A DNA stretch of 64,000 bases from the NCBI RefSeq assembly GCF_025024155.1, contig NW_026251718.1, forward strand, positions 367,001-431,000. The letters run 5' to 3'. Position 1 is the first letter of the stretch; each line of letters opens with the position of its first letter. Under the pieces are notes generated by a model. The model had not been told where the DNA came from and did not search any database. It saw nothing but the letters and a program-made list of their open reading frames with translations. Both the position numbers and the translations under genes were made by a program. The stretch comes from Gamsiella multidivaricata (Eukaryota > Mortierellomycota > Mortierellomycetes > Mortierellales > Mortierellaceae). Shown here in pieces: positions 20,315-25,744 of this stretch.

Positions 20315-21263
20315 GTGTGGCCCGATTCGTCCTGCAGGATGCTTGCGAAATGTCTGTGCTCTGTTGATTAGTCTGTAGGAAAGCCTGTCGTTGTCTTGTG
20401 CTGAGCGTGGTGAATGAGAGAAAGAATGCGATGTAGCAAGAGGGAAGAATCAGAAGTAGCCAGAGAATAGGATTACAAGGAAAAGCTATACGCTTATTGG
20501 CTTTTGAGCAAGTGGATGAATAAAAGTGTTCAGGGGCATAGCAAGGCTCTTGCCAAGTTAAAAAGTGACTTCCGCGTATAAAATCCTTCAATTGCTCCCA
20601 ACTGTTTTCTTTCTCTTTTCTCTTTCTTCTTCTTCCCCTTATTTCCCCCACTCGCCATATCACATCTTTGCCATCCGATGGATCGTCAGGATCCGCTCCA
20701 CTTACCAGTCCAGACCTGTCTACATGTATCAAGATCACCCTGCTGTAGGATCGAGATCAGGATCAGGATCGAATCAGGATCGGGATCAGGATCAGGATCG
20801 AATCAGGATCACATGTCTGATCAAACCGAATGCGACATTGGATCTCATCCTTTACGATTGCTCTGCGGATCAAATGTGATTTGATTGTAAGTTGCCAGCT
20901 TTGTGATCAGATCACTTTATTGTTATTATTTTCTCGCTACTCCTTGTTTGATATGATGATCTACGCTCATGCTACTTTAAACCCAGCTCAATTCGATATA
21001 TAATGAGATTAAGCGTCTACAACTGAACAACACTCGAGCAGCAAAACAATTAAGCCCATCGCGTTTCAATCCTGGAAGCATACCAGTCCTTAACCGAGAT
21101 ACCTTGCTTTTATTGTTCCCCGGTATTAGGTTAATAAGACTATTTTCTCACAGGCCGGGCTAGCATCGCTTGATTTCAGCTTTCACGTCAATTGCGAGCA
21201 ACTGAAATAATTGAAGCAGGTGGAACGATTGAAGCAATTAAGCCAACCCCTCGTCAGACAGGC
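20315..21263. other. Sirtuin upstream region with GATC-rich repeat
   Basis: Contains the putative sirtuin promoter. A block rich in GATCAGG units lies at 20,749-20,810. A C/T-rich stretch at 20,605-20,660 is on the wrong strand to be the sirtuin leader. No gene seen. Confidence 0.5.
20755..20810. repeat. 27-bp tandem duplication of GATCAGG units
   Basis: Two 27-bp copies begin at 20,755 and 20,784, each built from GATCAG/GATCGAATCAG subunits. The block lies about 440 bp upstream of the sirtuin start codon. Confidence 0.8.
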
Positions 21264-22400
21264 TCATGCAGGCAGGGGTGAAGGTGAGGTAGTGTTATAA
21301 TTGGTCTTACGTCTGAACTGCCCGCGCATATTTTTTTGTGGCATCGCGACAAGGATCGATTTTGCAATTTGCTGTATTGTAGCATTAGCAAGCATATCTA
21401 TGGTGTTGCTAGATAGTAAGCTTGATTCCAGGTCAGGTTGCCATCGTTGTTTACAGGCTGTAGATCTGTGGACGCGTCTGTGCAACAGGCTGAGAACAGG
21501 CATATTTGGGCGGCCATGCTGTCGCGATGGTACGGAAGCTATGGATTGGCGAGCCCCGACACGACTCTTGAAGTGATACTCCCTAAGCTTGCCGATGGGA
21601 ACGATCAATCTCAATAGGAGTTGACCAGGTTTTGGCTCGCCAAGCTTCTTCAAGCAGCTATCCATTGTAGTCGTACTGTCCCAGCTAAGGGCCGCCGTAA
21701 CCTCTTTGTATTACACAAAATGAGGTGTCCATTTGATCGGGAGGTTTATTTTCTACAATAAAGTCATTCACTTTCTTCATCACTGTCTTGCTACCACTTC
21801 CTATGATTGATAATTTCCTTTGCAATCGCCATGAAGGATATGATAACCGATATGTCATTGGATTCTTTCTCTCAACATTAGGGATTGAGGAAGATGATGC
21901 GCCAGCAGCATGTCCCGGCCGTTTACATGCAATTTGTGCGGGGAAACAAAATTTGACCAAAGATTCTTTTTGAATTGATTTCTTATTCTAAAAATATAAG
22001 ACCCTCCTGGACGATCGGTTTCGGGGAACAAAAAAAGGATGGGATTTGTGGCTTGGTGAGTTTTTGAATTGAATTTCTATTCTAAAACTATTGGTGCTGG
22101 CGATCATGCATTGCTGCGGGTCGTTGTCAATGGTGTCCTTTGCCTTTGTCTTTTCCGATTTGTTTGATCCATTCCTCCACGCTCTTTACAATATCCTTGG
22201 CTTTTTGAGAAGTCTTTATACGCGTTCGGTAAATGACTTCCCAAATATGACCGTATCTGATGAAGAACCTGGAAGGGAGGTTCTCTTTTTCCTGCTCTAA
22301 CTACAATAAGATGTACCAAGCAATCAACCAGTTTCGTGAGGAGAGCCACGCCTATTGCCGCAGATGACAGAAAACACGAATGCACAGTCAAGTCAACAGT
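21264..22400 (-). other. Possible decayed coding fragments, unrecognised
   Basis: Three minus-strand open stretches (21,264-21,665; 21,685-21,960; 22,104-22,391) have protein-like composition, e.g. KKLGEPKPGQLLLRLIVP in the first and YRLSYPSWRLQRKL in the second. They cannot be joined into one frame with clear splice sites. I do not recognise the family. They sit beside the broken nuclease locus, so an old mobile or effector-type gene is possible, but this is a guess. Confidence 0.25.
21939..22092. repeat. Imperfect ~90-bp direct duplication
   Basis: The pair CGGGGAA(A)CAAAA ... TTTTTGAATTGA(A)TTTCT(T)ATTCTAAAA(A/C)TAT occurs twice, starting near 21,940 and 22,023. The intervening sequence has diverged. 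It lies within the decayed accessory patch. Confidence 0.6.
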
Positions 22401-23226
22401 ATCATATCTAGGTTGCTTTGGCGAGGTCTTAAAAGCTTCAGGATCCCTTTTCAGTCATATCCTTCCGAGATCTCTCTATACCAATTCCGATTGCTTGACC
22501 CCAGAGGGAATTTTTTGCTTACTGCAAGGGACTTGCTGTGCTTATAGCGCCAATGGTGCTCGATCTCTACTCGGTCTTGGTTCACCCTTTTGAGTGTTTT
22601 CTCGGAGTCCCCATGTCTGCATACATGTCTCACTGACAAATCTAATTCACGCGGTCGACCTCGTTTTCCGTCGTAAAGTAGACGGGAAGTGGTGCGTTGC
22701 CATTCAGGGATTTCTTTTCGTACCAGGAGCGCGAGTTTCCTTGCGAGCAGTGCAGCCATTGAAACGTGTTTCTCCTGATATATGGAGTAGGGGAGTCGTA
22801 TTCTCAAGGGAAATCATATGGTACGGTAGCAGTCGAGGGGTCATAGTTGAGTGAGTAATGCAGAATGTCTTTGAGCTGCAGGAGATTCATGTGGTATAAG
22901 AGTGAGTGAAAGTGGGCGGAGGTAAAAAGGAAAAGCTCAACAGCGAGTCTGGCGAGCAAGAACAAAGATAAGAAAGAGGTTATTTGCATGCGAATGCCAA
23001 TGGTTGACCAAGTGCAGTCAGCGGTCAGATACCTGATGATTGCATGTGAGAACCCTTTCTTCCCCCTGCTTAATGTCATTTTCCATTGCGCTAAAGGATC
23101 TGTGCGGTTTGCCAGATCTTTCCTATCCATACACTCTCACGCTCCTTCACTGTTCCCACACTCTCATCTTTCTTCACTGCCATTGTTCGAAAAAAAATTC
23201 CATATCTTCTCGTAGTGTAGACAACC
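22401..23226. other. Gene-poor flank of the nuclease locus
   Basis: Contains only short, unsupported ORFs. No promoter motif for the downstream locus could be identified with confidence. An in-frame TAG at 23,218-23,220 closes the frame just before the nuclease N-terminus. Confidence 0.4.
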
Positions 23227-24298
23227 ATAGGCATTGAGGGCCTGTGGCCCTTTCTACGGAAGGAAGGGTACGAGCCTGTTCTTCGCCATCAGTCCTTCCA
23301 CTTGTTGAACCTTCCCAACTCCTTTGATCACAACTCGGCAATTGGAGTCGACATCCTTGGATCGTTTTATGTAACCGTCCGCCACGCGTATTCCTCACAC
23401 CCCATGGAGGATGCTCATTGCGTTGTTGAGCGAAAAGTACGGGAGTTTGGAGCCCAGGCGAACCTGGTTCTTTACCTGGATGGCGGCCCCTCAAAAGAAA
23501 AGAGACCCACTCAAGTGCACCAGCTTTGCGGGTCATGTTACGGAGCTCAGGACAATAAAGGGACAACTCGATGAGTTTTACAACGGCAACAACCGTTTCA
23601 TGAAGCACAAGTGGGATGCAAGAAGGGCCAGAGATGCAGAATACAGACTCATAACGGATCGCCTACTCAAGTTGGTTGGCGGGTCGATCGGCAGAAAGAG
23701 GGATGAAGCTAATAAGGTGGTTATTGGAGTCGGTTTGGGCGAGTTTTCAACCAAGACGAGGCTTTCCTCGCTACATGAGTCCTTCCAGTCATACTTTGTT
23801 CAAAAGGTAGGGGTACTATCACTAAAGATTCCAAGTCGTGTAAAATCGTTTTGTATATTTTACTGACTTCGTCTTGGTGTCCCATAGGCGAGGACCCTAG
23901 GCTACATCGTGGTTGGTCTAAATGAATACTATACGTCCAAGAAGTGCCCGACGTGCGAGAAATTTGTCAGGCAGGTCGAGATCCGCAGGCTGTACTGCCC
24001 GACCTGCAAGTCTTACATGCACCGCGATACCATGGCGGGGCACAACATTGCCAATGCGATTCATGGTCATTTGGTCAATCAACAACAGCCTCCCTATCTT
24101 CAACTGGTGGATAAAAATGGGCACTACCCCCGGATGCAGAATGCAAGATCGCACACAGAAGCCGGTAGCAGCAACAGCAACAGGAGCAGCGGCAGCAGTA
24201 GCGCGGTGGAGCCAGGGCAAGGACGAGTTGGCGGTGGACGCGAGCGAAGAGCGTCCATACAAGATGCCCGCCGTAAGCGAGTCTGCCAAACAGTTTAG
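23227..24298 (+). pseudogene. Broken XPG/FEN1-like + TnpB/Fanzor-like nuclease gene
   Basis: Two nuclease-type segments lie in different frames. From 23,227, frame A reads IGIEGLWPFLRKEGYEPV, then GVDILGSFY and LVLYLDGGPSKEKRPTQ. This is the layout of XPG/FEN1 N-terminal domains (start MGI.GLW..L, an early metal-ligand Asp, then a DG.P..K motif). The initiator is ATA instead of ATG, with a TAG three codons upstream. Near 23,515-23,540 the similarity passes to frame B (23,540-23,806 spliced to 23,888-24,298; clean GTAGGG..CATAG intron). Frame B reads FYNGNNRFMKHKWDARRARD, VVIGVGLGEFSTKT, GLNEYYTSKKCPTC, YCPTC and HRDTMAGHNIANAI: the RuvC-II/zinc-ribbon/RuvC-III end of TnpB/Fanzor nucleases. 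The RuvC-I Asp is absent, consistent with an internal deletion. Frame B has no stop before 24,298. Mutated start plus frame change argue for a dead copy. Confidence 0.7.
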
Positions 24299-24516
24299 CT
24301 AGTCTAGCTTTATTTTCCATTTATGTGTGTTAGCAAGCACACTTTTAGTTTAGAGGTAGCACGTCCTCGCGGGAAGAATGTCTTCGGTGACGTATTCTCG
24401 GCGAGAAACGAGCTACTTTCTTTTCCGCCAGCTGTTCTTGAGACGATCGTTCACACTCTCCTCTTCTCGTCGCCCACTTCTCCTTCATCCTCTTCTTTCA
24501 CTCTCTCACGACAAAC

Positions 24517-25744
<1,228 letters not shown>

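Follow-up and report, generated by a model that had tools for sequence, protein, structure and literature searches.

The window analysed here, a 64,000-nucleotide stretch of Gamsiella multidivaricata DNA, contains a dead, non-functional internal-deletion derivative of a larger mobile-element gene, and this copy very probably belongs to a family in which a FEN1/EXO1-type nuclease is fused to a putative RNA-guided, Fanzor-like nuclease, an arrangement from which we infer that copying of the element may be driven by resection. The two remnants are an XPG/FEN1-like N-terminal piece (23227-23518) and a TnpB/Fanzor-like end (23521-24298), as the initial annotation had proposed from peptides that are all present in the window sequence.

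Table 1. Features of the element copy in the window.
Feature	Position	Strand	Basis
Mobile-element copy, extent by homology to other copies	22099..24425	+	blastn of window 21000-24600 against other copies
Decayed pieces of divergent (head-to-head) transposase-like gene	22107..22890	-	tblastn, protein homologues
FEN1/XPG-like N-terminal piece	23227..23518	+	first two of seven acidic sites: GVDILG, LYLDGG
Internal deletion junction	23518..23521	+	window follows L052 on the left (to 23519) and L049 on the right (from ~23519-23521)
Fanzor-like stretch upstream of zinc ribbon (LDEFYNG...GVGLGEFS...YFVQK)	23521..23806	+	matches longer copies L021, L040, L057
Intron, GT...AG, 81 bp	23807..23887	+	sequence; intron at corresponding place in L021, L057
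Last exon: displaced RuvC-II Glu (NEYYTSKKC), C4 zinc ribbon, RuvC-III (HRD), tail, stop	23888..24298	+	PF07282
3'-terminal hairpin region, stops at element's right end	24331..24420	+	fold of 24331-24412, alignment of ends

The window copy shares its left limit with L052 and its right limit, at 24420-24425, with L014 and L015 (blastn). The N-terminal frame (frame A) is open from 23227 to 23574 and reads IGIEGLWPFLRK...GVDILGSFY...LYLDGGPSKEK, with family homology stopping at ~23519, and the last exon reads GLNEYYTSKKCPTC...YCPTC...HRDTMAGHNIANAI. Alignment with L014, L052, and L049 indicates that the deletion takes out XPG-I, the REC/WED part, and RuvC-I, and with them the greater part of both nucleases; longer relatives carry the missing parts in order, which bears out the earlier suggestion that the copy derives by deletion from a larger two-nuclease gene. 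The spacing of ~25 bp then given between the halves does not hold for the C-terminal motifs listed at the time, which start ~370 bp past the end of frame A similarity and beyond the intron, but an unlisted Fanzor-homologous stretch (~23521-23806) does adjoin the end of frame A. Since the copy has no ATG where its relative L052 has a start codon, its FEN1-like and Fanzor-like parts are out of frame with each other, and the deletion is internal, it can make neither nuclease. The deleted form itself has nevertheless multiplied, as an identical junction recurs in L014, 360 kb off on the window's contig (84.7% identity over 1439 bp, no similarity beyond). The last exon matches Cas12f1-like_TNB (PF07282, E=1.5e-10, above the Pfam cutoff), so that the domain assignment held for the C part, but the N piece alone gave only a sub-threshold match to Pox_G5 (E=0.019). 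Neither piece is a chance frame, because each matches elsewhere in the genome at E<=0.001, the N piece 69 times (up to 77% identity) and the C piece 149 times (up to 82%).

For the transposase-like pieces, a tblastn search with the N-terminal transposase-like region of L045 as query gave E=1e-18, L051 698-1170 corresponding to window ~22418-22890. The ORFs at 22107-22454 and 22454-22813 have protein-level homologues in L052 and L040, the second ORF also in L045, L047, L043, and L019, and a Pfam search of the two pieces gave no significant match.

A search of the window's own assembly (37.5 Mb) with both segments recovered many other copies, the longer ones holding both halves in order, as had been expected. 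The counts, which are lower bounds and include fragments, are at least 150 matches to the C-terminal end (with scores for 150 of 190 candidates), at least 70 N-piece matches, at least 69 XPG-I matches, and at least 127 matches to the RuvC-I region. A C-terminal match lies no more than 6 kb downstream on the same strand at 59 of the 69 XPG-I places, compared with an upstream C match at 3 of 69 and an opposite-strand match on either side at 7 of 69 in the controls. The N piece, XPG-I, and the C-terminal end occur together at 36 places, 29 of which have RuvC-I too. In L057, L056, L058, and L059 the order is FEN1 half, linker, REC/WED, RuvC, and zinc ribbon, with introns present; these four are all the longer host-genome copies that were read closely, and each carries at least one frame break by eye.

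Protein searches returned 37 proteins with the spliced L057 protein as query and 91 with the RuvC region of P0006 (97 distinct in all). Both segments do occur within one protein, as had been predicted: profiles of both halves are matched by 64 of the 97, with the N half first in every one. The other 33 have the C half only, many being annotated as partial, and some of them may be stand-alone genes; no protein has the N half only. Hits with an organism name fall in eleven genera, all placed under Mortierellaceae in NCBI, and no named hit lay outside the family among proteins of 0.55-1.75 times the query length; two of the searches scored only the 8000 candidates with the most words in common, and a wider distribution is compatible with these results. 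A scan of viral contigs gave 47 pattern matches, none confirmed as relatives.

Full-length members are predicted to be a single protein of ~1,100-1,350 amino acids with two nucleases. In P0006, a FEN1/EXO1/XPG-type 5' nuclease (~1-297) is followed by a linker of ~150 amino acids and, at 446-1124, a zinc-ribbon nuclease of the Fanzor fold; at the pTM of 0.65 of the predicted structure, how the two nuclease domains lie relative to each other is uncertain. Among 41 proteins scanned with Pfam at E<=0.01, TNB was found in 36, XPG_I in 18, and XPG_I_2 in 6, and XPG_I and Cas12f1-like TNB co-occur in P0016, P0041, P0044, and P0053. The family may have been overlooked because databases name its members after whichever half is recognised ('Rad2 nuclease', 'XPG-I domain-containing', 'Cas12f1-like TNB domain-containing', or 'hypothetical'). 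The names given to P0102, P0109, P0100, P0101, and P0046 ('Rad2 nuclease', 'Elongation of fatty acids protein 2', or 'putative transposase') derive from one half or, perhaps, from a neighbouring gene merged with it.

In the aligned sequences, both sets of putative catalytic residues are conserved in full-length members. The seven acidic sites of the N half, which presumably follow FEN1 residue numbering, read D 22/23, D 31/31, E 34/34, D 34/34 (E in FEN1), D 32/35, D 35/35, and D 35/35 among those of the 41 rows that have the residue. This half has the FEN1/Rad2 fold, with EXO1 as the best fold match and FEN1 within 1 Z unit, and the fold alignment extends to EXO1 residue 318, a range that may include the helix-3-turn-helix DNA-binding element. 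Unlike the stand-alone 5' nucleases FEN1, EXO1, XPG (Rad2), and GEN1, the family member is fused to a Fanzor-like nuclease, and it is encoded by high-copy mobile elements, not by a host repair gene.

In the C half, RuvC-I has D in 41 of 41 rows and RuvC-III has D in 37 of the 37 with the residue, and the four zinc-ribbon Cys are kept. The displaced RuvC-II Glu, rightly noted by the initial annotation before the zinc ribbon of the window copy, lies six residues before the first zinc-ribbon Cys and is E in 35 of the 36 rows with the residue (5 of the 41 rows have gaps); the pattern is found in 47 of the 97 proteins, many others being without the region. At RuvC-I the 41 rows read DLG (27), DGG (7), DAG (3), DPG (3), or DMG (1), and among the 97 proteins DPG accompanies the displaced E in 5 and a residue other than P accompanies it in 40. 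According to PMC10711439, the Fanzor fingerprint is DPG at RuvC-I plus the displaced Glu, and a second displaced-Glu clade has a hydrophobic residue in place of the P of DPG; the present family may descend from this second clade or may have lost DPG secondarily. P0006 fits the Fanzor motif D-X(125,275)-[TS][TS]-X-X-C4-X(5,50)-RD given by Bao and Jurka (PMC3627910), with spacings of 188 and 5. The C half has the Fanzor fold in predicted-structure comparison; a sequence-profile search matched no Fanzor chain up to E=10, LaTranC was matched at E=3e-4 (E=0.012 with a second profile), and the guided_TnpB model was matched at E=5e-8, below that model's cutoff. We call the C half Fanzor-like because of its fold, displaced Glu, and motif fit, the fingerprint of DPG with displaced Glu being mostly absent. 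Compared with Fanzor (Fanzor1; SpuFz1, PpFz, GtFz), the family adds ~300 N-terminal residues that form the second nuclease domain, and its RuvC-I is mostly DLG, DGG, or DAG instead of DPG. TnpB/TranC (LaTranC) resembles it at the zinc-ribbon/RuvC-III end, but the displaced Glu and the fold are nearer to Fanzor. To our knowledge, bacterial TnpB proteins have no N-terminal nuclease.

The fusion genes are carried by mobile elements whose 3' ends are base-exact, and in some of these elements a SWIM transposase-like gene stands head-to-head with the fusion gene. In subfamily F1, 13 of 13 aligned loci stop at the same base and then run into unrelated DNA; the right end is likewise at the same base in subfamilies A (4/4), C (3/4), D (2/2), and B (2/3), and a third copy of subfamily D, L063, agrees to within a base or two. 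The transposase-like gene, which we provisionally label 'MULE', ends in a SWIM zinc finger (E=1e-5 in L022, 0.004 in L030) and has a weak ZSWIM RNase-H-like match (E=0.02). Among 14 locus entries (not all distinct places) that extend at least 1 kb upstream, it lies head-to-head with the fusion gene in 6 and is absent from the other 8, L014's place among them; it is also found in four entries with less than 1 kb upstream (L001, the same place as L051, and L029, L045, and L047). LINE-like 5' truncation, considered in view of constant 3' ends and variable 5' ends, was dropped when L030 proved to be an internal deletion linking the transposase-like gene to the Fanzor half. The terminal repeats anticipated at the flanks did not emerge, as no inverted-repeat score rose above shuffles, and no exact or near-exact target duplication, which measures ~9 bp in Mutator-like transposons, was found, only chance-like partial matches inside L029 and L060; in both cases the left end of the element is not fixed. 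Fanzor1 elements of the MuDr type have been described in Rhizopus, Phycomyces, and Mucor by Bao and Jurka, who also describe a Mucor family whose 5' ends are fuzzy (PMC3627910).

Subfamilies F1, A, and D and the window family share a G[GC]TGACGT motif, which begins ~33-36 bp ahead of the right end; the 3' motif of the window copy spans 24382-24420. In L036 and L060, a short ACGTCACC-like motif near the left side mirrors the right-end GGTGACGT in inverted orientation, possibly by chance. The subfamily D copies L040 (5' flank, to 1543) and L062, on contigs C47 and C94, have their 5' neighbour DNA in common; their 3' neighbours differ, and the extent of the element's 5' end apparently differs as well.

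By analogy with TnpB and Fanzor, the C half would be a putative RNA-guided DNA endonuclease that takes its guide RNA from the 3' end of the element and the adjacent flank. In the mechanism we consider most likely, its RuvC would cut the flank or the target site under RNA guidance, the FEN1/EXO1 half could then, in what is purely a conjectural step, resect 5' ends or remove 5' flaps at the break, and repair would run through homology, copying the element into, or back into, the site. Tentatively, and with rather less than even confidence, we propose a natural 'cut-and-resect' machine, in which a putative guided Fanzor-type nuclease with its own EXO1/FEN1 module turns breaks into homologous repair that copies the element.

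It is somewhat unlikely, though a serious contender, that the fusion is real and its flap-nuclease half serves a step other than end resection, such as trimming of guide RNA or mRNA, cutting of displaced-strand or R-loop flaps, or processing of 5' flaps made by the transposase. Substrates of FEN1/Rad2 enzymes include 5' flaps and forks, such structures arise in R-loops and transposition intermediates, and the head-to-head transposase-like gene in 6 of the 14 entries is in keeping with such a role; the best fold match of the N half, EXO1, speaks against it, although FEN1 is so close behind, and the sequence data would fit either end resection or a flap step.

TnpB and Fanzor draw their guide from the sequence adjoining the right end of the element, and base-exact right ends with variable flanks would fit a guide of this style. 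Ten 3' tails, folded in windows chosen by eye, gave z-scores of -5.2, -3.3, -1.8, -4.8, -2.5, -2.3, -2.4, -2.8, -0.9, and +0.2, with -1.79 for the window copy (24331-24412), -4.81 for L015, and -2.45 for L014. Of the conserved structured RNA suggested for the flanks, what emerged is terminal hairpins that differ in strength: they are strong in subfamily A (z -5.2/-3.3) and in L015 (-4.8) but weak or absent in C (-0.9) and B (+0.16). L001, L003, L029, and L040 had no Rfam match at E<=0.1, and the 3' hairpins could equally be transposon-end features. This inconsistency between subfamilies, together with a RuvC-I other than DPG in 38 of 41 rows, would suit a C half that is no longer RNA-guided, a captured Fanzor fold that the transposon has put to new use as a DNA-binding/nuclease accessory; we consider this improbable, given the retained Fanzor fold, the conservation of the RuvC-I D (41/41), displaced E (35/36), RuvC-III D (37/37), and four Cys, and a dN/dS below 1 in the pairs compared. 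The values are 0.40-0.59 for the N half (5 pairs, all L035/L038/L039) and 0.07-0.78 for the C half (11 pairs, of which two are entries that overlap at a single place), all below 1 in pairs of 70-98.5% identity with decaying copies among them.

Finally, it is highly unlikely that gene predictors wrongly merged neighbouring FEN1-like and Fanzor genes, as might be read from the halves lying in different exons with several introns between and from the 33 of 97 models with the Fanzor half alone, since 64 models from many genera join the halves in the same order, 59 of 69 genomic places hold the pair on one strand, and the linker is coding, with at least 60 residues in 39 of 41 rows (the N half is missing from some of these) and a block (346-402) as conserved as the FEN1 half (0.54 versus 0.53).

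No fusion of Fanzor or TnpB with FEN1, XPG, or Rad2 was found in an open-access literature search that in part covered titles and the openings of abstracts, with most subscription papers and supplements outside its reach; 'Fanzor flap endonuclease homologs' in PMC11071296 is a label, and the accessible part of that paper describes no fusion. The FEN1/EXO1 and Fanzor-like fusion is thus new relative to the literature searched, and there is a strong case for direct tests. If the cut-and-resect proposal is true, the fusion would be a natural counterpart of engineered Cas9-Exo1 editors, which likewise place a 5'-3' resection nuclease N-terminal to a programmable nuclease (PMC10572186); those are man-made and use Cas9, whereas the family is natural and Fanzor-like. 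Truncated Exo1 at the Cas9 N terminus raised knock-in 2-2.5 fold (PMC10572186). The hundred-plus, mostly decayed copies in one genome would then be the product of such homing. A fused DNA-end/flap nuclease hints at which repair step limits the help that Fanzor gives to transposons in eukaryotes, a hint testable with two point mutants in one protein, and the family could serve as a naturally evolved genome-editing scaffold favouring homology-directed repair.

As to the surroundings of the copies, many lie 2-3 kb from contig ends, and a subtelomeric location was considered and abandoned, as four contig-end stretches held no telomere repeat array; these contig ends look like assembly breaks within the repeat. 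In L025 (C121:309000-315868) and L007, a stretch of 4 kb lying ~2 kb from a contig end contains three C-terminal copies, in both orientations, and the contig end at L022 (C126:736010-736129) reads by eye like a helicase-like piece (VVLDEAQ), which may belong to another repeat. At ~4440-4545 of L057, the last exon of the fusion gene is broken up by a short insertion that resembles a MITE, with inverted repeats of ~27 bp (by eye). Next to the window copy lies a gene for the NADH:ubiquinone oxidoreductase 20-kDa subunit (24517-25744, + strand, start and end read by eye; PF01058, E=5e-14 for one exon), and as the element stops ~100 bp before the putative start codon, it sits in the promoter or 5' UTR region of this gene.
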